Part shown: positions 47,008-57,681 of the stretch, piece by piece | How the letters are laid out: each line of letters begins with the position of its first letter | Numbering within the stretch: position 1 is the stretch's first letter | Made by a program: the position numbers and the translations under genes | DNA from: Fibrobacterota bacterium | Lineage (GTDB): Bacteria; Fibrobacterota; Fibrobacteria; UBA11236 | Direction of reading: 5' to 3' | DNA length: 64,000 nt | Assembly (NCBI GenBank): GCA_019509785.1 | Contig: JAEKLQ010000028.1 | Location: 1 to 64,000 of the forward strand | Notes under the pieces: model-generated | Seen by the model: only the letters and a program-made list of their open reading frames with translations | What the model was told of the DNA's origin: nothing | Databases searched by the model: none

Positions 47008-50000
47008 TCATCTCCACACCAGCTTTTTCCTCTGGACCCCTTCGGGCCCGGACAAGCGGTACAGGTAAATCCCCGGCGGCACCGCGCGTCCGTGTCCATC
47101 GCGGCCGTCCCACTTCAACAGGTAACGCCCCGGATTGAAAGTGCCGGTAGCCAAGGTGCGCACTTCGGCCCCGCGCATGTCCCACAGCGTCAATGTTATC
47201 GGCCCACGCCGCGTGAGACCGAAGGGGACCCAGGTTTGGCCCACGGCGGGATTGGGGTAATTCTGCCCCAGCTCGAAGCGATCCGGCAGCCCCCGTAGCA
47301 GGGCCACCGGTCCGGACGAGGAGGCGCGTTGGGTCATGGGCATCATGTCCACGCCGCCGGCCAGGCCGTAGACCAGGACCAGGTAATCGCCGAACAGGAC
47401 GTTATCGAGCTTTACTTCAGCGGAAAAGCTGCCGTCTTTGGCGCGGACGAGGGGCGCATACTGGAACGGATCGGCGGCGGCTTTGGGATCGAAATCGGGC
47501 TTTAGCACGGTGTACCAAGCGGTATCGACGGGGATAGGTCCCTCGGGAACGGCTACGATGGAGAGGGTCCGCGTATCGGGATCGAGACGGGTGCGGACTT
47601 CCTTCCAATCCGCTTCCGGGCTTTGGTTCTGTTGCGATCCGCCGACATAGACTTCGGAAAGGCGCGCCAGATCGACGGTCTCATTGGGAGTATCGTCGAG
47701 ATCGGCATTGGCCTGGGGATTGGCCAGCACCCGTCCCGAGATGGCATTCGCATCCGACCAGACTTTTCCCGCCGCCCAGGCTTGCGCGAGGTTGCCGCCC
47801 TTGGCGATCTGCTTGAAGAAGGCGTAGCTGAAGCTTTGCCCTAACTGGAAATAGGCTTGGCGATCCGCCGCCGCCGAAGTGATCACGATCCGGTTCTGGG
47901 TCGCGGAACGCAGCTTGGGGATGAAGGTACCCGCGTAGCAGAAATCCAATACCAGCACGATGGGCGTGCGCAGGCTGTCGCCCTTGCCCGAGTCGTAGGT
48001 ATCCAGCCAGGCATCCAGGGAATCGGGGGTCACGAACTCCGTGGGGCTCAGGAAGAATTTCCCGTTCTGCACCTCGGCATGGCCGCCATGGCCGATCAAG
48101 GTGATCAGCAAGGGTACGCCGTTGCGCACCCGATCCCGGTAGCCCAGGATGCGATCGCGCAGCAAGGCCGGCGTCATGCGCGTTTCGTCCACGATATTGC
48201 TGTTGGCGTGGTAATCCAACCCGATGCTTTGCCATCCCACCGGATTGAAATAGGTGATGAGCGAATCGGTGAAGCCGCGCTGGCGCAGTTTGGCATAAGC
48301 CCAATTACAGGCCGGCGCGATGTTCTGGTAGAAATACAGGTTGTCGTTGAAATCCGTGCCCGCCGCGATCAGGGCCAGCCCCACGCCCGCTTGCACGGGG
48401 ACCCAGGAGGTGTCCGACCAGGAGGTATCGCCTTCGTCGTCCACGGCCATGGCGTAGAAGCCGTGCAGACCTAGGGCCAGGGCGGAGGAATCGAGCGTGG
48501 TGTCCTTCGCGCCCGAAATCCTTCCCTGCAAGGTGGAATACAGGGCGAAGGTATGCAGGCTATCATGGATCGGATCGGCGCCTTCGTCCAGATCGTAGGC
48601 GGTGCAATGGAACCGGGGGCGATCCGCGCCCCGGAGGATAAGGCCGCGCGGGGAGATGGAATCGATGCGGACCAGGGGTTTACGGCTGCGCACCGACACG
48701 GTGGCATGTGCGGCCGCGGACGTATCCCCTTCGTTGTCCACCACGCGCAGGGTGATATCGTGCGCGCCGATGCCGAGGGCGCTGGGTTTCAGGGTGAAGC
48801 CCGAGGCGCTGGCGCCGATGGGCCCGGCCAGGTTAGAGGACCAGAGGTAGGCGGTGATGCGATCGCCTTCGCCGGCGTTGTCCGAATCGTTGGCCGTGGC
48901 CAGGAGGGATATGGACGAAGCCGTGTCCCACGGCAGGTCGGCGGGGGTAACCTTGTCGATACGGCACCAGGGCGGGGCCGCCGCGGTCCCGGAAAGGTCG
49001 ATCTCCAATGGGAGCGGGGCGCCGCCGTAATAGAGCTTGAGCACGCCGGTAAAGTCGCCGCCCGCGGGCTTGCCCGGCGCGAAGCGCACCGTCAAGGTCG
49101 TATCCGCGTTGGCGGGCAGGGAAGAGGGCAGGGCGGGGAGGAGGAAGGCGTCGTTCACGACCCGGGCCGAATCCACCGGCACGCGCAACCCGCTCCCGTT
49201 GGTGATCTTGAGGGTGGCTTCCTGGGCCGCTCCCAGATGGATCTTGCCGAAGGCGATGGCCGGAACGGCGGGGGTGAGAAGATAAGCGGGGATCGCGACG
49301 GCTTCCGGCGAGAATCCGCTATGGTTCCCCACGCGGTCGGACGCGACGATGAGGAAGGCGTAAGGCGTTCCGTTCTTGAGCCCGGACACCACCTTGCCGG
49401 TCGCATGGATGTCGGTGATGGAATCGATGCGGGCGACCGGGCCGGAAGCATTCCGCTGGTAGATCAGATAGCAGAGGAAATCGCTTTCCGTGGCGGCGGG
49501 CCAATTCAAGGTGACCGAGCGATCGCCCGGCGAAGCCGTGAAAGGCGCGGGGATGGCGGGCGGCGTGCCGTCCGGGGTCGCGGTGAGTTCATTCGAATAG
49601 GAAGAAGGGTTTCCGCCCGCGTCCTCGGCCGAGAGGCGGAAATGGTAGGTTGTTCCGTCAGTCAACTCCTTGACGATCAGAACGGTATCGCCAGCGTGGA
49701 TCACCGAATCCATGCGCGCTTCCGGCGCGGCCGACGTCCCGTAATGCACCAGGTAACGCTGGAATTGCGTTTGCGGCAGCTTATGCCAACGCAGGGTGAC
49801 CGCGCCGGGCCCGGGACCGGATTCCGCGCCCAAGAGTTCCGGAGCCGGCAGTCCCAGGCTGAAACTCTGTTCCGAAGGGAAGGGCGATCCGGCCAATTGC
49901 TGATCGAACCCCTGGGCGCTCCAGTAGTAGGTTCCCGGAGCCAACCCATTGAGGGTGGCCGTGCGGATCTGCCCGGCATTCCCCGGGCTCGGGGTTAAGC

Positions 50001-52593
50001 GGAAACCCGTAAGGGCGGAGAGCGGCGACAACACGTCGGCGCCGCCGGGCGATGTGCCTACCCGTAGGTTGTATTGCATGCCGTCGGGAGTCGTCTCCGC
50101 ATCGTTGGACGCGCCCCAGGAGAGATGGACCGAATTCCGGCCCAGGGCGGATGAGAGACCGCCCGGCGCCGAAGGCGCGGCATTGGGGACGATGAGCGAA
50201 TTCCGGAAGACCTTCAGGCGATAACCGCTTACGGCGAAATCCTGATCGCCGTCCCCATCGAAGTCGGCGACCGCCACGCCCCCCAGGATGAATGCGTTAT
50301 CGGGCCAAAGGGTGGTCCATTTGGTCCCATCGTTGCGGAAGAGCAAGGTGAGGCTGTAAGTGACGTTTTGGTAGATGTAGGTGCCGGAACCGATGAGATC
50401 CAAATCGCCGTCATTATCGAAATCGACCCAGGCCAGGTCGCCCCCTATTTGCATGTCGGGGCGTGCGGATTCTTGGAAGCGCCCGCTTACGAACCTGTAA
50501 ATGAGGGTGGTGGGGTCGCCCCTCATACCGGTAACCAGGTGGGAAAGGGGGTTTGTTCCGCTGACGGCGAAATCGAGGTCGCCATCGCCGTCGAAATCCC
50601 CCCATGCGACTTTCGCATCGGTAAGGCCCAGGAATTGATCGGCGGTCCGCTGGAAGGTACCCCCCACGTTACGGTAAATCGCAGTGATCGGGGAGCCGGA
50701 TCCCCAGCTCAAGGTATCTCCGGCGATAAGGAGGTCCGGTTTCCCGTCGCGATCGAAATCCCCCCATGCCATATCCCCGTTGGTAAGCCCCGGGAGGTCG
50801 CCTTTAGGCGCAGGGACGAAGGCCCCCTTGCCAAGGTTGCGGAATATAGAGGACCAGGAATGTTGGTTGGTTGCGGCGTCGGAGGCGTCGATCCCCCAGG
50901 CCGCAAGGTCGGGCTTCCCGTCCCCGTCGAAATCCGCCACCCGGACATGCTGGATGTTCGCGACCAGGGAGGAATCCATATTCAGGGTCGCTTCCGCGAA
51001 TCCCGATGACGTTCCCCGGAACCACCGCAACCCGCCGGTGTAAAAGGTCTTTCCCGCCAGAAGCACGTCCAACCAGCCGTCCCCGTCCAAGTCGCACAAT
51101 TCGGGATCACCCTTGATCCCGTCCAAGGCCGAAGCCTGGGGTACCATGGTCTTGCCGTCGTTGTGGTACAGTTTGCAAGAGGCTCCATTCGCGGCATCGC
51201 CCGTCGGGCAGACCAGGAGGTCCAAGCGCCCGTCATGATCGAAGTCGCCCCAAAGCGGCCTGCCGGGCGGGAGCGAATCGATGGCGGGGGCCTCATGGAA
51301 ATCGCCGCGGATGTTCCGGTAAAACACGGTGGAGAGCGAGCGCCGTCCCTGCGCGTCGTTGGTCGTGCCGGAAAGCATCAAATCCACGTTGCCGTCGCCG
51401 TCGAAATCGGCCAAGGATCCGGTCGCCAACGAGAAGGGTTGCAAAGGAACGCCCAGATCATCGAAAAAGCCGTCGTCGTTCACCAGCACCTTGGTGAAGT
51501 ACTGGCCGGGATAATCGGTATTCGCGCCGCTTACCACCAGGTCCGGATACCCGTCCCCGTTGATGTCACCGAACGAGACCACTCCCAAGTCCGCGTCCGC
51601 TTTCAACGAGCCGGAGAGCGCCGCCGTATCCAACAGGAAACCCGATCCGGTGTTATTGTACAGCCTCGTGGTAGCGATTCTGCCGCCGCTAAGCACGAGG
51701 TCGGGGAGTCCGTCGCCGTCGTAATCCCCCCAATCGGCGGAGACCACCGAGATCCCGGCGGCAAGCGATGCGTATCGGGAGAAGCCGGATCCCGTATACC
51801 TATAAACGGTGGCGACGCTAACGGCGTTCGTATCATTTCCCGCCAGGAAGAGATCCGTCTTACCGTCTTGATCGAAGTCCCCGAAGGCGACCACGGCATT
51901 ATAGACGGGCTGCAATCCGGGCATCGCCGTGAAGGACAGGCCGGGACCGATCTTGTAGACGGCCGTTACGGCATGATCGGGCGTGTAATCGCCGCGCGCG
52001 GGGCGGATTTGGGCGGATACGAAGAATTCAGGGATTCCATCTTGGTCCAGATCGCGGAACCGGAATACGGGCGAAGCGGAATACAACAAAGGAGGAACCA
52101 GGTTCGGCGGGGTGGCCTTCACTTCGAAACGATTCGTGCCAGGGTTGTAACCGTAGATGCGGACGCAGCCGCTATCATATCCGCCATCCGGATCGGTGAC
52201 ATGATGATGGACCCAGACCGCCAATTCGAAGTATCCGTCGTGGTCGAGATCGGCCCAGGCGGCGGAGGAAGCCAGCGAATCCCCTAAGGCATGGAAGTCC
52301 TCGAACTTGGAATATTTGCCGCCGCCGTTATTCCGCCAGACCTCCACTGTGTGGATGAAGCCATAGACCGAGGTGGGGTTGGATTTACCGAAAACGAGGA
52401 CGTCCGGTTTGCCGTCATGATCGAAATCGCCAACGGAGATCCCGGCATCGTTGACGTCATCCGAGCCCGGTCCCGACCCCGTCCCCACGCCGGTAATGCC
52501 TACGCCGATATTCCGGAATTCCTGTGCCGCACCGGAACGGGGCAGGCACAGGGCCAGAAGCATAGCCACGAGGAAGGCGAAGAAAAATCGCAT
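47008..52593 (-). CDS. Giant surface protein: two FG-GAP propellers, FnIII domains, clan-CD peptidase, sorting domain
   Basis: Exported protein of 1861 residues with signal peptide (1-24). Residues about 45-790 hold fourteen Asp-rich FG-GAP/VCBS repeats (for example GDFDHDGKPDVLVFG, GDYDGDGLPDLVL, ADFDGDGDQDFAVSG), enough for two Ca2+-binding seven-bladed propellers. Three FnIII-like domains follow (about 800-1090), then an ASPM/DUF1573-like beta domain and two Ig-like domains. A peptidase domain at about 1430-1650 shows the clan-CD His-Cys pair as LITLIGHGGH (about 1501) and VLVLDFCYAG (about 1551), nearest to C13/gingipain-like enzymes. The last 80 residues (FELGQNYPNPAVGQ..WDGRDGHGRAVPPGIYLYRL) are a FlgD-like/Por-type C-terminal sorting domain. 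It is the last gene of the ECF-caspase operon, 36 bases after the lipoprotein gene. Confidence 0.85.
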   Translation of the reverse strand: MRFFFAFLVAMLLALCLPRSGAAQEFRNIGVGITGVGTGSGPGSDDVNDAGISVGDFDHDGKPDVLVFGKSNPTSVYGFIHTVEVWRNNGGGKYSKFEDFHALGDSLASSAAWADLDHDGYFELAVWVHHHVTDPDGGYDSGCVRIYGYNPGTNRFEVKATPPNLVPPLLYSASPVFRFRDLDQDGIPEFFVSAQIRPARGDYTPDHAVTAVYKIGPGLSFTAMPGLQPVYNAVVAFGDFDQDGKTDLFLAGNDTNAVSVATVYRYTGSGFSRYASLAAGISVVSADWGDYDGDGLPDLVLSGGRIATTRLYNNTGSGFLLDTAALSGSLKADADLGVVSFGDINGDGYPDLVVSGANTDYPGQYFTKVLVNDDGFFDDLGVPLQPFSLATGSLADFDGDGNVDLMLSGTTNDAQGRRSLSTVFYRNIRGDFHEAPAIDSLPPGRPLWGDFDHDGRLDLLVCPTGDAANGASCKLYHNDGKTMVPQASALDGIKGDPELCDLDGDGWLDVLLAGKTFYTGGLRWFRGTSSGFAEATLNMDSSLVANIQHVRVADFDGDGKPDLAAWGIDASDAATNQHSWSSIFRNLGKGAFVPAPKGDLPGLTNGDMAWGDFDRDGKPDLLIAGDTLSWGSGSPITAIYRNVGGTFQRTADQFLGLTDAKVAWGDFDGDGDLDFAVSGTNPLSHLVTGMRGDPTTLIYRFVSGRFQESARPDMQIGGDLAWVDFDNDGDLDLIGSGTYIYQNVTYSLTLLFRNDGTKWTTLWPDNAFILGGVAVADFDGDGDQDFAVSGYRLKVFRNSLIVPNAAPSAPGGLSSALGRNSVHLSWGASNDAETTPDGMQYNLRVGTSPGGADVLSPLSALTGFRLTPSPGNAGQIRTATLNGLAPGTYYWSAQGFDQQLAGSPFPSEQSFSLGLPAPELLGAESGPGPGAVTLRWHKLPQTQFQRYLVHYGTSAAPEARMDSVIHAGDTVLIVKELTDGTTYHFRLSAEDAGGNPSSYSNELTATPDGTPPAIPAPFTASPGDRSVTLNWPAATESDFLCYLIYQRNASGPVARIDSITDIHATGKVVSGLKNGTPYAFLIVASDRVGNHSGFSPEAVAIPAYLLTPAVPAIAFGKIHLGAAQEATLKITNGSGLRVPVDSARVVNDAFLLPALPSSLPANADTTLTVRFAPGKPAGGDFTGVLKLYYGGAPLPLEIDLSGTAAAPPWCRIDKVTPADLPWDTASSISLLATANDSDNAGEGDRITAYLWSSNLAGPIGASASGFTLKPSALGIGAHDITLRVVDNEGDTSAAAHATVSVRSRKPLVRIDSISPRGLILRGADRPRFHCTAYDLDEGADPIHDSLHTFALYSTLQGRISGAKDTTLDSSALALGLHGFYAMAVDDEGDTSWSDTSWVPVQAGVGLALIAAGTDFNDNLYFYQNIAPACNWAYAKLRQRGFTDSLITYFNPVGWQSIGLDYHANSNIVDETRMTPALLRDRILGYRDRVRNGVPLLITLIGHGGHAEVQNGKFFLSPTEFVTPDSLDAWLDTYDSGKGDSLRTPIVLVLDFCYAGTFIPKLRSATQNRIVITSAAADRQAYFQLGQSFSYAFFKQIAKGGNLAQAWAAGKVWSDANAISGRVLANPQANADLDDTPNETVDLARLSEVYVGGSQQNQSPEADWKEVRTRLDPDTRTLSIVAVPEGPIPVDTAWYTVLKPDFDPKAAADPFQYAPLVRAKDGSFSAEVKLDNVLFGDYLVLVYGLAGGVDMMPMTQRASSSGPVALLRGLPDRFELGQNYPNPAVGQTWVPFGLTRRGPITLTLWDMRGAEVRTLATGTFNPGRYLLKWDGRDGHGRAVPPGIYLYRLSGPEGVQRKKLVWR

Positions 52594-52629
52594 CGGGAAG
52601 CCTTTCAGTAGAGGCGGATACGGATCCGA

Positions 52630-54597
52630 TCAGAAAGAAGAGAAACGCAAAGCATCGCCATCGGAGACCAGTACGGTCCGCGATGCCGGATCCAAGGCGA
52701 TGGATCGCCCCGGCCTCGCGCCCGGCACCGGAAGACGTCCGAGGGTCTCCCGGGAGAAGGGGGCGAATACCAGCAAGGAATCGTTTTCGGCGGAAGTCGC
52801 GAAAGCATATCCCCCGAAGAGCCCGCTGGCATCGGCGGCGAGGCGATCAATGGGCGTCGCGGCATCGATGGAATCCGCCGGGCTTAAGTCCGCGTGGAAT
52901 CCCCGTAGCCACCGCGATCCCGGCGACGACCCTCCGACATAGAGCAGGCCGCCCACCCATGCCAGATCGTCCACTTCGCCTTCGGAAAGATCCCGCGCCG
53001 CTTTCACCTTACCGTCCGCTTTCCCGATCAGCAACACATGCCCCCGCACGTTCGGCGCGTTCCCCTCCACCGCGTAATACCCGCCGGGCCCGGAGACCAG
53101 TTTGGGCGATCGACTCTCCGGCTGCGCCCCGTCCCATCCGTAACCTTTCAAGGTATCGATCTCCAACAGGGAGAGATCGGCGGCGAGGAAGCGGGCGAGG
53201 GCCAAGGTTCCATCGCTTAGACGACCTAAGGTAAGCAAGTGGGCCCCATCACGCAAGAGACCGCCCGGTTGCAGTGTGACGGGCACCACACTCTGGACCG
53301 GCGAAGTCCTCCACGCGGCGATGCGGCCGATGCGGTTGGCATCCGGATACGAAATATACAGCGCGTCGCTATCAGCCAGCATTTCTCCGGCATCGAAATA
53401 TTCGGCAGTTAGGGAATCGCCATCATTATTGGCCAAGTCGATCGTTTTTTCGAGAACGGGAGGTCGGGTATCCATCCGGACAAGGTACGCCTTGCCCGCC
53501 TGGTTGAACGGGGTCGACATTACGACGGCGTAGCCGGCCGCTACCGCGACGGAACGGATCTCGCGCTTATCGCCCAAATCGATGGTCCGGAAGGACCCGA
53601 CGGGGGGAATCGCGGTCACGAAGCGGCTTACCGGGCCGGACACGAGGCGAAGCGTGTCCAGCTTCCCGATGCGATCCACCCCTGAAAAGCGCGCGTAGTA
53701 GGCAGCCGGAAGGGCTTCATTCACGGCGATGGCATAACTCCCGTCCTCGCCGGTGAAGCCGGTATAGCCTTTTCCGAAATCCATCGGCTGGGTCGCCAGT
53801 TCCACCCGGATTGCGATTTGCGGAGCTCCCTCGCCCCAATCCACGACCTTACCGCGTAAGAACCGGGGACCTATCGTCAAGAGCACCCGTAGGCTGTCCA
53901 GCGGCGAACCGGCCGAATCCAGGACGACATATGCCGTGTCATGTCCCACGGGAAGGCTCCAGGTTCGGCATACGACCCGCAGGACCGAATCGCGGCCGGG
54001 CGCGGCGGAATCGCCCCCGGAAGATTCCCATGCGGCTTGGATCCAGTCTTCCGAGGTTCTGGCGGTGATTCGGAAAGCCGGCATGTCGCTAACGCGCATC
54101 GAGCCGGGGATGCTGTCCACCACATCCAAATCCCGGCCTTGGAAATGGGGACGCACGTAGGGAGGTGGCGGGTGCAGCGTGTCGGGTGGGGGCGGCGGAG
54201 GTTTCGTCGTATCCTTCGCCACGCAGGTGTCCGTCACCACCCCCATCGTCTCGCCGCCGCGCGACTTCCGCTCGACGAAACAGTTGCCCCGATCGCGCCG
54301 ATAGCCGCGTACGACGTACACGAGGTTGCGACTGCCGTCCGCCGCGCCCACGCCCAGGCTTTCCGGCGATGCCAACGGCCCTTTCCATAAAAGGACCACC
54401 AGGCGGGAGTCCTCCGCGTCTTCGAGCCAGACCTCAACGGAATCGAAGCGCTCCAGCGAATCCCCCCGAAGGGCGGCACGCGCATCGTAGGCATCTTCGG
54501 GGCGGACCAAGGGCTGCTGCAGAAGGCAACCCCATAGCGCGGCCCCGGCGGCGGCGAACATGAGAATGCGGATCCCGGCCCGGATGGCTGCCTTCAT
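52630..54597 (-). CDS. Lipoprotein with beta-propeller-like C-terminus, caspase operon
   Basis: A 655-residue lipoprotein; ATG 54597 overlaps the caspase gene stop (ATGA) and opens a signal peptide with lipobox ALWGC (Cys about 24). Features in order: an N-terminal beta region (about 40-135) with two Cys (NCF, DTC), a Pro-rich linker PPPPPPDTLHPPPPY, and a region with a carboxypeptidase-regulatory-like insert (LRGKVVDWGEGAPQIAIRVELA..GEDGSYAIAV, about 265-320). The last about 320 residues are propeller-like repeats (SVAVAAGYAVVMSTPF, DALYISYPDANRIG, LAWVGGLLYVGG). No enzymatic motif. It may display or tether a partner at the outer membrane. Confidence 0.72.
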   Translation of the reverse strand: MKAAIRAGIRILMFAAAGAALWGCLLQQPLVRPEDAYDARAALRGDSLERFDSVEVWLEDAEDSRLVVLLWKGPLASPESLGVGAADGSRNLVYVVRGYRRDRGNCFVERKSRGGETMGVVTDTCVAKDTTKPPPPPPDTLHPPPPYVRPHFQGRDLDVVDSIPGSMRVSDMPAFRITARTSEDWIQAAWESSGGDSAAPGRDSVLRVVCRTWSLPVGHDTAYVVLDSAGSPLDSLRVLLTIGPRFLRGKVVDWGEGAPQIAIRVELATQPMDFGKGYTGFTGEDGSYAIAVNEALPAAYYARFSGVDRIGKLDTLRLVSGPVSRFVTAIPPVGSFRTIDLGDKREIRSVAVAAGYAVVMSTPFNQAGKAYLVRMDTRPPVLEKTIDLANNDGDSLTAEYFDAGEMLADSDALYISYPDANRIGRIAAWRTSPVQSVVPVTLQPGGLLRDGAHLLTLGRLSDGTLALARFLAADLSLLEIDTLKGYGWDGAQPESRSPKLVSGPGGYYAVEGNAPNVRGHVLLIGKADGKVKAARDLSEGEVDDLAWVGGLLYVGGSSPGSRWLRGFHADLSPADSIDAATPIDRLAADASGLFGGYAFATSAENDSLLVFAPFSRETLGRLPVPGARPGRSIALDPASRTVLVSDGDALRFSSF

Positions 54598-56138
54598 GGC
54601 CCGAACCTTAAGGAAAAGGATACCGGGAAGGCGGCGACGCGATCCAATCCGCCTCCCGCCGTGCGGCTGAAGAACCATCCCGCCCCGGCGGAGACCGTGG
54701 CCGCGAATCCGGATCCCAGGGCGCGCTCCAGCCCTAAGGCCGCGAAACTACCCAGCAGATCCGCGCGCGGCAACTCCGACCCGTTCACCTCCTGCCCGAT
54801 GGACCAGTATTCCGCCCGCGGGCCGAGGAAGATCGATCCCGCCCTGGAGTAACTCCAATAATACCGTACCTCGCCCGATACCCCCAGCCCGCCCTGCTCC
54901 AGGCGGCCGCCCTCGCCCATGGCGGCGGACTTCGCGAGGTACAGGCCCGCCAAGCCCGCTCCCCAAGGCCCGACGTTCCCCATCAGCCCGGCCTCCAGGG
55001 CCAAAGCCGATCGCCCGCGCCCCGGAAAGGCCGGATACCACCGGGGCTGGGCCGCGATCTGCATGGGATCCCGCGAGGCGAAGGCCTGCGGATAGCTCCG
55101 GAAGCCGCCCTTGGCCCCCGGTTGCTCCCGTCCTGCCGGCCGGAAATCCTCCGGGCCCAAGGCGGCGCTCTTGCCGCGGCGGAGATCGGCGAATCCCACT
55201 TCGCTCCGTCCCCGGTAGATGAGGTAGGCCGAACGCGGCAGCGCCAGCTTAACCCCTTCCGGATCCGAAAGGCGGAACTCGGCGACCTGGGTCCCGTCTT
55301 CGGCTTGCAGGATCCGGTATTCGTCCGCGGGCATCCCCTGCAAGGTCAGGAAGGCTTGGCCCAGTTCCAGGCGCGTAAGCACTACGTTGTCCGAGCCGCG
55401 CGCTTGCACGTCGAATCCGGGCGTTTGCACCGTCCCCTTGTCCCCGGCCAAGCGCCGCCGCAAGGAGGCTTGCGTGAAGGCGTACGCTTCCCACAAGGTG
55501 ATTTTCCCGTCGCGATCGAAATCGGCCGCGCCGCGCAATGCGGTGACGAAGAAATGCGTGAACAACGATCCCTGCAACTCTTTGCTTTCCTGGGACAGCT
55601 CCCCGGCGGAACTGGAGGTCAGGATGGCGGACCCGTTTACGCTCAGTTCGTCCCGGTAGCGGATGGGAACGGGATCGGCCAGGCCCGCGCCCTTGGCTTG
55701 GATCAGGGATCCGCTGAAACAGGCATCGGCGACCAGGAGCTTGAAGTCCGCTTCCAGGCCGGCGAAATACTCGCGGACTTCCGAGAGAGGCAGGCTCGCG
55801 CCTTCCATATGCAAGGCCTCGTCCGATCCATGGCCGGAAAAGTAGAGGAGGATCTGGCACTTGCGGCCTTGGCCTTTCAGGGCCTTCACCCGCTCGCGGA
55901 TGGACTTCAAGGCCAGCCGGACCTTGTCCACGTCCGCATCGAGCAACAGGGTTCCGGAGCCCTTGTCCAAGCCTCCCAATTGCGATAGCGCGGAAAAGAC
56001 CTGCTCCGCATCCCGGGTGGCGTAGCTCAGGGTCTTTTCATCGGAAAGCCCCTGGTTATCGCCGACCACCAGGGCCAGCCGATCGAGGCCGCAGGCGGGC
56101 AAGCTGAGTCCCAGGACCCCGGCTGCCAACCACTTCAT
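54594..56138 (-). CDS. Caspase-family (C14-like) lipoprotein with EF-hand and beta-rich C-terminus
   Basis: A 514-residue exported protein with a short signal peptide ending in lipobox LPAC (Cys about 16). The caspase-like domain spans about 20-250: RLALVVGDNQG, catalytic His in LLYFSGHGSDE (about 101) and Cys in LLVADACFSGSL (about 142). An EF-hand/dockerin-like loop FDRDGKITLWEAY follows at about 208. Then comes a DUF-like beta region (about 275-330). The last about 130 residues look like membrane beta-strands (SGEVRYYWSYSRAGSIFLGPRAEYW, FPVSFSLRFGP), ending in a hydrophobic barrel-like signature. ATG 56138 overlaps the anti-sigma stop. The active-site pair is intact, so it is probably a live protease. 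Confidence 0.82.
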   Translation of the reverse strand: MKWLAAGVLGLSLPACGLDRLALVVGDNQGLSDEKTLSYATRDAEQVFSALSQLGGLDKGSGTLLLDADVDKVRLALKSIRERVKALKGQGRKCQILLYFSGHGSDEALHMEGASLPLSEVREYFAGLEADFKLLVADACFSGSLIQAKGAGLADPVPIRYRDELSVNGSAILTSSSAGELSQESKELQGSLFTHFFVTALRGAADFDRDGKITLWEAYAFTQASLRRRLAGDKGTVQTPGFDVQARGSDNVVLTRLELGQAFLTLQGMPADEYRILQAEDGTQVAEFRLSDPEGVKLALPRSAYLIYRGRSEVGFADLRRGKSAALGPEDFRPAGREQPGAKGGFRSYPQAFASRDPMQIAAQPRWYPAFPGRGRSALALEAGLMGNVGPWGAGLAGLYLAKSAAMGEGGRLEQGGLGVSGEVRYYWSYSRAGSIFLGPRAEYWSIGQEVNGSELPRADLLGSFAALGLERALGSGFAATVSAGAGWFFSRTAGGGLDRVAAFPVSFSLRFGP

Positions 56139-56872
56139 GGGGAATTCAAAAGCAAGAAGGGACGCATATGCAATCCGGCGACGGCTTTGCCTTCGGCCTG
56201 CGCCCGCGCGGCTCGGGAATCGAAGGTTCCGTAAGACCATATGCAATAGAGACGTTCGCGTTGCCACCCACGTTCCAAAATAAGGCTATGGGGCAGGTTT
56301 TCGCCTCGGGGGTTTCCTAGCGGCCGGCCTTGGCCTTCGTCCATATAGGTTTGCAAGGCGCCTTCGTCGTCGCGGTAGAGGACGGCGAAATGGACCGGTC
56401 TATCCGCGATTATGCCCAATTGCAGGGTGTCTCCCGGCTTGCAGGCCACGCTATCGCCGGAGGCCCGGCCGTTCACGAACAAATGGAATTCGGCCGAGCC
56501 CTTGGCCGACAAATCCGAGGGCGAAGGGGTCCAGGGAACGCGTAGGGCCACGATGGCCAGGATCAGGAGGGCGGCGATTGCGATGGCGGGCCGGGGGGAG
56601 AGCGAATCCCAAAACGCCCGCAATGCGCTTTTCGCGGGGGCCCTGGCCGACCGGGCCCGGCGCGTGGCCGAGAAGTATTCCCAGCTCGGGTATTTCGCCG
56701 CGAAAGCATCCCGCGCGGCCGTCGCTTCGCGCAACTTCGCGGCGCAGTCCGGACAGGCTTGCACGTGGCTTTCCAAGGCGGACCGATCCGCCGGCGAGGC
56801 TTCCCCGGCCAGGAATTCCGCCAGGGCGAGGCGCGACGGATGCGGTCCCGTGGATGCGTGGATAGGCTTCAC
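56135..56872 (-). CDS. Membrane anti-sigma factor with extracytoplasmic DUF4384-like domain
   Basis: Single-pass protein of 245 residues. The N-terminal zinc-finger anti-sigma domain has the H-x3-C-x2-C motif HVQACPDC (about 32-39). A transmembrane helix lies at about 94-112 (PAIAIAALLILAIVALRV). The C-terminal periplasmic part reads ACKPGDTLQLGIIADRPVHFAVLYRDDEGALQTYMD and resembles DUF4384 domains found in anti-sigma proteins next to caspase genes in myxobacteria. It overlaps the sigma gene by ATGA, the usual cognate-pair arrangement. Confidence 0.85.
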   Translation of the reverse strand: MKPIHASTGPHPSRLALAEFLAGEASPADRSALESHVQACPDCAAKLREATAARDAFAAKYPSWEYFSATRRARSARAPAKSALRAFWDSLSPRPAIAIAALLILAIVALRVPWTPSPSDLSAKGSAEFHLFVNGRASGDSVACKPGDTLQLGIIADRPVHFAVLYRDDEGALQTYMDEGQGRPLGNPRGENLPHSLILERGWQRERLYCIWSYGTFDSRAARAQAEGKAVAGLHMRPFLLLNSP

Positions 56873-57507
56873 CGGTAGCGCTCCATCTTCGCCTTGAAGG
56901 CGGTCACCTTGCGATGGATGGTCGTGCGCGAGATGCCGAGCTTCTCAACCACCTCTTCCTGCGTCAACCCTTCCAAGTAGAGCAGGAAAACGATTTCCAC
57001 GGTTTCCCGATCGGCTTCCCGGGTGATGCGCTCCACCAAAAGGCATGCGTCCATATGTTCTTCCGGGGAAGCGTGCAGCATCTCCTCGAAATCCGGGACG
57101 CCGGCCCCGTCCACCTCGAATTTCCGTTTGCGGAACAATTGGATGCATTCGTTCACGGCGATACGGTAGATCCAGGAGTAGATGCGGCTTTGTCCCTTGA
57201 ACCCGGCGAGGTTTTGCTGGACCTTGATGAACACCTGGTTGACCATGTCCTCCGCGTCTTCCTTATTGCGGACGTACTTCATGCAAACCCAATAGATCGA
57301 CGCGGCGTATTTGCGATATAACGCGCCTATCTCGACGCTGGCTTCCGGCTCCTCGGGGGACTCCGCCGCCCGCATGGCCGGAAGGGATTCGTCTTTATGT
57401 CCGGGCGTTTCGGGACCGATGGAAAAGGCATGCAAAAGCCGGCGGGACAAGCGCAGAAGCTTGCCTATGGCCTTGCCCTGTCCACCGATCCAGACGGCGC
57501 TTATCAT
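56869..57507 (-). CDS. ECF-type RNA polymerase sigma factor
   Basis: Sigma-70 family protein of 212 residues. Region 2 is LYRKYAASIYWVCMKYVRNKEDAEDMVNQVFIKVQQNLAGF..RIYSWIYRIAVNECIQLFRKRK, and region 4 is VFLLYLEGLTQEEVVEKLGISRTTIHRKVTAFKAKM with its HTH. The first about 55 residues are an extra variable leader. It heads the sigma/anti-sigma/caspase/lipoprotein/giant-protein operon. A thrS gene is divergent across 174 bases. No convincing ECF-type promoter could be read upstream, so autoregulation is unproven. Confidence 0.9.
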   Translation of the reverse strand: MISAVWIGGQGKAIGKLLRLSRRLLHAFSIGPETPGHKDESLPAMRAAESPEEPEASVEIGALYRKYAASIYWVCMKYVRNKEDAEDMVNQVFIKVQQNLAGFKGQSRIYSWIYRIAVNECIQLFRKRKFEVDGAGVPDFEEMLHASPEEHMDACLLVERITREADRETVEIVFLLYLEGLTQEEVVEKLGISRTTIHRKVTAFKAKMERYR

Positions 57508-57681
57508 TTGGATGCGCTAGCTCCCGGGATTGTTCCGCGCTTGCGCAAAAGGCCCGCGGCGGATGCGCCAAAGCTACTTAAAATCGGGGGGCGAACCGCA
57601 TTCCGTCGTAGAGCGCCATTTGAGCCCGGTCCCCATTCTTTTTAATTTCCGAGGTTTCGGCCAACCCGGGAGTTAGACGCC

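Follow-up and report, generated by a model that had tools for sequence, protein, structure and literature searches.

Membrane anti-sigma factors such as RseA, which is cleared by DegS and RseP in the sigmaE pathway, and RsiW are cut first on the outer or periplasmic side and then within the membrane, and this two-step proteolysis frees an extracytoplasmic function (ECF) sigma factor. The physiological substrates and roles of most bacterial caspase homologues have, to our knowledge, not been established, and they are usually assumed to act in programmed cell death. Operons combining a sigma-70 factor with a metacaspase were noted in 2012 in Myxococcus, Anaeromyxobacter, Haliangium, Sorangium, Ralstonia and Fibrobacter (Asplund-Samuelsson et al., PMC3501461). 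In the CASP system of type III-E clustered regularly interspaced short palindromic repeats (CRISPR) loci (Csx29-Csx30-CASP-sigma), a caspase-related CHAT peptidase cuts the inhibitor of an ECF-like sigma factor (PMC10028731). Here, we analyzed a stretch of 64,000 nucleotides from a Fibrobacterota genome (contig JAEKLQ010000028.1, assembly GCA_019509785.1), referred to as the window, in which three adjacent genes encode an ECF sigma factor, a membrane anti-sigma factor and a secreted caspase. Based on comparative analysis, we propose with a probability of roughly 55% that this triad is an envelope-signalling switch with the caspase as its site-1 protease. The three genes are:

56869..57507, minus strand, ECF sigma factor gene (Sigma70_r2 E = 1.1e-14, TIGR02937 E = 4.1e-23)
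56135..56872, minus strand, membrane anti-sigma factor gene with a GTG start, conserved beside the caspase (Pfam zf-HC2 E = 6.9e-7)
54594..56138, minus strand, secreted caspase (peptidase C14) gene (PF00656 E = 3.8e-11)

In the proposed mechanism, the membrane anti-sigma factor would at rest keep the ECF sigma factor bound to the cytoplasmic side of the inner membrane. In response to an envelope signal, activation would occur of the secreted and probably outer-membrane-tethered caspase, which would process itself after Lys149 in the loop following the catalytic cysteine and, as site-1 protease, cut the anti-sigma factor after Lys124, which lies close to the membrane in the periplasmic linker. 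Completion of the release would fall to a site-2 protease; an RseP homologue is encoded in the genome and, together with the K124-G125 candidate site, is consistent with proteolysis of the RseA/RsiW type. The free sigma factor would then transcribe its own operon including the caspase gene, giving positive feedback, as well as a small set of envelope genes. We infer the signal, the self-processing and the anti-sigma cleavage. The core of this idea, namely that the genes respond to the envelope, that the caspase may cut the anti-sigma factor and that the sigma factor drives the caspase gene, was contained in a prediction made earlier from the window alone (the original prediction). It draws strong comparative support from cross-phylum synteny, joint loss, an invariant Lys-Gly in the linker of the anti-sigma factor and a promoter that stays with the caspase gene where this has left the operon.

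The operons described in 2012 represent the same gene association as the triad; PMC3501461 names no anti-sigma factor, promoter, processing site or mechanism, whereas the present analysis defines the triad, adds further phyla and provides sites that can be tested. The proposed circuit shares the two-step release logic of RseA and RsiW, but its site-1 protease would be an operon-encoded cysteine peptidase of the caspase fold, in contrast to the DegS-type serine protease of the RseA system. The CASP system is cytoplasmic, activated by target RNA and linked to CRISPR, whereas the triad caspase is secreted, linked to the envelope and without a CRISPR part. Among the window's neighbours and the neighbourhoods read, we found no type III-E CRISPR effector gene, and the likeness to CASP is thus one of principle only. 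A caspase cutting a membrane anti-sigma factor outside the CRISPR case was not found in the literature searched, which was mostly without subscription papers. What is new are the Lys-Gly of the anti-sigma factor, the Lys-Gly at Cys+9 of the caspase, the invariant Asp of its S1 pocket and the conserved sigma promoter.

We searched 151 Fibrobacterota genomes for the caspase and found relatives in 121 of them. An ECF sigma factor and an anti-sigma factor lie directly upstream of the caspase in the 20 Fibrobacterota neighbourhoods fetched, most of the genes touching or nearly so, and at the class level the relatives that share this triad are Fibrobacter species. Scanning the GTDB species genomes gave 80 independent loci in six phyla, about 70 of which show the order sigma, anti-sigma, caspase; the remaining loci are mostly contig ends, a divergent arrangement or a lineage with an unlinked caspase. 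The triad is thereby found in Fibrobacterota, Myxococcota (Enhygromyxa, Anaeromyxobacter, Polyangia), Spirochaetota, Acidobacteriota, Eisenbacteria and Fermentibacteria. For this core, neither a loss of conservation nor a loss of catalytic residues was seen, the His-Cys dyad of the caspase (H103/C140) being invariant in relatives. By these comparisons it is the first three genes that make up the actual unit, and their arrangement is far beyond chance, which is not true of the fifth gene of the locus (see below).

Caspase and anti-sigma factor are also present or absent together. In a two-probe search, they were concordant in 31/31 relatives (both in 26, neither in five), and since the five double-negative relatives fall in different genera, the two were probably lost jointly several times. 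In the same search, full-length anti-sigma factors of the triad type adjoin caspases almost without exception, and anti-sigma matches lacking a caspase neighbour comprise the N-terminal anti-sigma domain only. The window's genome carries two further complete triads (G000:C69:76007-76996, L051; G000:C21:83744-84982, L052) of the TRxKG type of other lineages; therefore, parallel pathways coexist in one cell. Besides that, one triad lies on a contig titled as a Klebsiella pneumoniae metagenome-assembled genome (MAG; L097, CAMAXZ010000018.1), an assembly that is probably mislabelled or contaminated.

The sigma factor has regions 2 and 4 only, as is typical of the ECF group, with TIGR02937 above its cut-off and a region 4 signal (E = 1.1e-5) just under the Pfam cut-off. 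Its gene starts at the upstream ATG at 57507; an alternative in-frame ATG at about 57378 is possible. The anti-sigma factor shows the architecture of the zf-HC2 membrane type, with an N-terminal domain, one transmembrane helix and a periplasmic domain:

56741..56827, minus strand, zf-HC2 anti-sigma domain, residues 16-44 (Pfam match above cut-off)
56543..56596, minus strand, transmembrane helix, residues 93-110 (AlphaFold model and hydrophobic sequence)
56498..56503, minus strand, Lys124-Gly125 in the periplasmic linker, proposed site-1 cleavage site (conservation)
56138..56497, minus strand, periplasmic beta-sandwich (DUF4384-like), residues 126-245 (AlphaFold strands from residue 128)

The zinc ligands of the N-terminal domain are lost in most relatives and kept in some, and the closest PDB chain is the ChrR anti-sigma factor, with a weak match. 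As to the periplasmic domain, the proposed likeness to DUF4384 holds through relatives, 9/16 of which match at E <= 1 (best 4.9e-5), but not for the window protein itself, which gave no match to DUF4384 (PF14326) at the curated cut-off; a Foldseek search with the fold returned generic Ig-like sandwiches only. Among diverse anti-sigma factors (below 60% identity), Lys124 is present in 61/61 and Gly125 in 60/61, which makes Lys124 the most conserved position of the protein, and the linker before it is hypervariable in length and sequence. In the AlphaFold model, Lys124 lies in a low-confidence linker, 14 residues from the helix on its outer side and three residues ahead of the first strand. The context reads [T]R[I/L]KG in most lineages and xxAKG in the window's group.

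The main alternative is that the caspase is an output of the system: the sigma factor would drive the caspase gene, another, DegS-like protease would cut the anti-sigma factor, and Lys-Gly would mark the structural start of the periplasmic domain. We regard this as possible, with clearly less confidence than a caspase that acts as the trigger. It leaves unexplained why Lys-Gly is the best conserved part of the anti-sigma factor while lying in a low-confidence linker, why caspase and anti-sigma factor disappear together, and why the same Lys-Gly recurs in a loop of the caspase.

The caspase itself is a well-supported C14 peptidase (PF00656, 43.5 bits against a cut-off of 21.4), with a C14 match in 19/19 relatives, and has the following features:

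55830..55832, minus strand, catalytic His103 (YFSGHG), invariant
55719..55727, minus strand, catalytic Cys140 and S1-pocket Asp138 (DACFSG), invariant
55689..55694, minus strand, Lys149-Gly150 at Cys+9/+10, proposed self-processing site (conservation)
54597..55106, minus strand, C-terminal region, residues 345-514, probable outer-membrane beta-barrel (strand pattern)

By profile, its best PDB match is Arabidopsis metacaspase-4 (AtMC4), in which Ser84 and Asp137 form the pocket for a P1 lysine. Ser101 and Asp138 of the caspase align to these two residues and are both invariant; Asp138, at Cys-2, corresponds also to TbMCA2 Asp211, giving the acidic S1 pocket of metacaspase-like C14B peptidases, and the invariant Asp43 corresponds to TbMCA2 Asp95. 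Because the pocket residues of AtMC4 are invariant here, a basic P1 residue (Lys or Arg) is expected for this enzyme. Lys-Gly stands nine residues after the catalytic Cys in 150/150 triad caspases scored, compared with 0/11 other C14 caspases from the same genomes that are without sigma neighbours. The surrounding loop (residues 142-160) is predicted to be disordered, with AlphaFold confidence (pLDDT, predicted local distance difference test) below 50, as expected of a processing loop, and its context, [T]RxKGG in most lineages and QAKGA in the window's group, resembles the anti-sigma site. AtMC4 and TbMCA2 share with the triad caspase the Ser/Asp pocket for Lys or Arg, and both process themselves after Lys; however, they are eukaryotic and intracellular, whereas the triad caspase has a signal peptide, a tail of the barrel or surface-repeat type and its Lys at Cys+9.

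The original prediction had the caspase as a lipoprotein, on which we differ. The window protein has a Cys16 (..LPAC) near the end of its signal peptide; homologues do not keep a Cys there, and most of them resemble signal peptidase I substrates, so that the caspase probably has a signal peptide that is not of the lipoprotein type. For the tail in the window's clade we infer a small outer-membrane barrel as the probable topology, based on the beta-strand pattern and on C-terminal aromatic residues in relatives; Pfam barrel matches are weak and occur in single relatives, and the AlphaFold model is of low confidence. Elsewhere, the tails are surface repeats of the LA_2272 type. Tails of either kind, surface-type repeats or barrels, would also suit a caspase that is an output rather than a trigger. 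A stand-alone secreted protein resembling the surface-repeat tail (ending in PGFELGVRIGR) was observed with a sigma promoter in G131 (L237:1599-2588).

Next, we looked at the sequences upstream of the triads. In Fibrobacter and relatives, a motif GTRACAC-N15-GTGTTW precedes the sigma gene, typically with 7 bases between its end and the start codon, and component dyads of this promoter occur in 14-17 of 21 non-redundant loci, compared with at most two in shuffled sets. Exact copies stand before the sigma gene in Enhygromyxa (Myxococcota), a Polyangia MAG, a spirochaete and a Fermentibacteria MAG, and Acidobacteriota and Eisenbacteria have near copies there. Some of the training loci of the weight matrix are the same ones; the exact 13-position matches are independent of it. 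The promoter also accompanies the caspase gene, as two kinds of rearrangement show in the manner of natural experiments: the divergent myxobacterial loci (L106, L133) have a copy on each side in the correct orientation, so that the caspase has its own, L123 has one before the caspase, and in Fibrimonas-type termite-gut genomes (L022, L028, L127, L243-L249), in most of which caspase and anti-sigma gene are found on different contigs, the unlinked caspase keeps a copy, usually 7 bases before its ATG. Near the divergent triads L106 and L133, a promoter-like site on the minus strand (reverse-complement 7611 and 7520) accompanies a proline/alanine-rich secreted protein of 424-447 residues.

Per genome, the promoter has only about one to five matches. 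In Fibrobacter, the targets (L228, L229, L230, L231-L235) are a TonB-receptor-like protein, a DUF4249-like lipoprotein, a DUF3450 gene with ExbB-like genes behind it and NADPH-dependent flavin mononucleotide (FMN) reductases, a candidate regulon of which we found no published description; in a spirochaete and in G131, the promoter precedes genes of the ExbB/TolQ type. Since such sites precede the caspase, even when it is relocated, and a few envelope genes, the sigma factor very likely governs these genes together with its own operon. That the sigma promoter of Fibrobacter stands before a TonB-type receptor recalls the FecI-FecR-FecA system, which likewise combines an ECF sigma factor, a membrane regulator and an outer-membrane component; in the triad, however, the outer-membrane component is a protease and not the receptor itself.

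These promoters bear on two alternatives. They directly support sigma control of the caspase, as a caspase that is the output would have it. The caspase as the trigger is nevertheless favoured, as far as sequence comparison can tell, over the caspase as an output because of the Lys-Gly sites and the joint losses. An enzyme of programmed death or fratricide under an envelope-stress sigma factor, in turn, would fit the caspase fold, and cell death has been speculated for extracellular homologues by Asplund-Samuelsson et al. (PMC3501461). However, what follows the promoter sites in relatives are genes for TonB-type receptors, lipoproteins, ExbB-type proteins and FMN reductases and not lysis genes, the triads read had neither a toxic effector nor a death-associated domain beside them, and the caspase is single-copy in nearly all class-level relatives, which makes a death function improbable.

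Several points weigh against the caspase as the site-1 protease of the switch. Three fragmented MAGs of the Fibrimonas type have the caspase, and no anti-sigma gene was found in them. Lys-Gly could be structural in either protein, and a caspase bound to the outer membrane would need to reach a protein of the inner membrane across the periplasm. Covariation of an Arg at P3 between the anti-sigma and caspase sites (Fisher P = 4e-5 on loci) was considered as proof of enzyme-substrate co-evolution and dropped after a tree test, in which it amounts to one joint change (P = 0.28). The resemblance at P3 is not independent evidence, because it goes back to a single shared split on the tree, and this lack of support is also in line with a caspase that is only an output. 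Furthermore, the GTRACAC/GTGTTW promoter is absent from the window's clade and from the window's genome, and a de novo dyad search in this clade gave nothing above shuffles. What precedes the sigma gene there is a weak candidate, GGWACA-N16-CATCC-AAATG, common only to three loci of the same genus (window, L034 and L035):

57510..57536, minus strand, GGAACA-N16-CATCC, weak promoter candidate immediately ahead of the ATG of the sigma gene (likeness of three loci)

With these points considered, we judge the chances to be about even for the broader proposal that a secreted, metacaspase-like enzyme serves as dedicated site-1 protease in at least six phyla, with self-maturation at Lys-Gly, a juxtamembrane cut of the anti-sigma factor and feedback through the sigma factor.

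The original prediction had treated the locus as an operon of five genes, all on the minus strand and all borne out at their positions in the window. The two genes following the caspase are:

52630..54597, minus strand, lipoprotein gene, lipid Cys24, accessory envelope lipoprotein (ATGA overlap)
47008..52593, minus strand, FG-GAP/fn3 giant gene, 1861 residues, His1502/Cys1552, with a type IX secretion system (T9SS) tail

The thrS gene lies upstream in divergent orientation, and a tRNA-Val gene and a biotin cluster follow downstream. The five genes are thus real, with some details corrected: two of the three ATGA overlaps claimed exist (anti-sigma/caspase and caspase/lipoprotein), whereas the sigma and anti-sigma genes overlap by GTGA, since the latter starts with GTG; the 36-base gap between lipoprotein and giant gene is correct. 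The interpretation stood for the three-gene core and fell for the five-gene unit. In the expected order, the sigma, anti-sigma and caspase families co-occur across phyla, but the giant and the downstream lipoprotein do not.

The fourth gene does encode a lipoprotein with its lipid Cys24; the propeller assigned to it is unproven, with no Pfam or NCBIfam match, and sequence matches come from same-genus genomes only. Homologues of its N-terminal lipoprotein part shift their place, standing after the caspase in L034 and between anti-sigma and caspase in G079, and in other triads the gene immediately ahead of sigma encodes a lipoprotein, several of these being related to one another. From these comparisons, the triad repeatedly has an envelope lipoprotein as its partner, though a variable one.

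In the giant protein, His1502 and Cys1552 exist, but their assignment to clan CD is weak (Pfam C13 E = 0.057, below the cut-off). We found no PDB relative of this peptidase domain, no relative in 30/30 related genomes searched and one other carrier among the 151 genomes of the phylum. The protein has the traits of T9SS cargo, with a type A sorting domain (TIGR04183, 29.0 bits against a cut-off of 23) and SprA encoded in the same genome (SprA_N match E = 7.1e-25), and it is probably a T9SS cargo gene and an incidental neighbour. A distant Fibrobacterota genome (G060; C14, C177, C301) holds three copies that are 45-47% identical to the clan-CD-like domain. The distribution of the domain suggests a horizontal spread of T9SS peptidase cargo.

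A self-contained circuit of all five genes, in which the released sigma factor would yield two surface proteases, the caspase and the giant protein, is suggested by the tight overlaps and the 36-base gap in the window's genome. With the giant peptidase domain nearly confined to this genome within the phylum, and with the syntenic locus L034 reading caspase, short lipoprotein and bioD and lacking a giant gene, we consider such a circuit the least probable of the readings discussed, and the five-gene operon was rejected as a conserved unit.

For the three-gene switch, the residues to mutate are K124 of the anti-sigma factor and C140 and K149 of the caspase. Culturable relatives with intact triads include Fibrobacter intestinalis and Anaeromyxobacter, and with the defined promoter of Fibrobacter the question of the caspase's role becomes testable. 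If the proposed reading is true, a large and ancient group of bacterial caspases would be signal-transducing proteases that cut one defined substrate bond, and would stand nearer to DegS than to an executioner.

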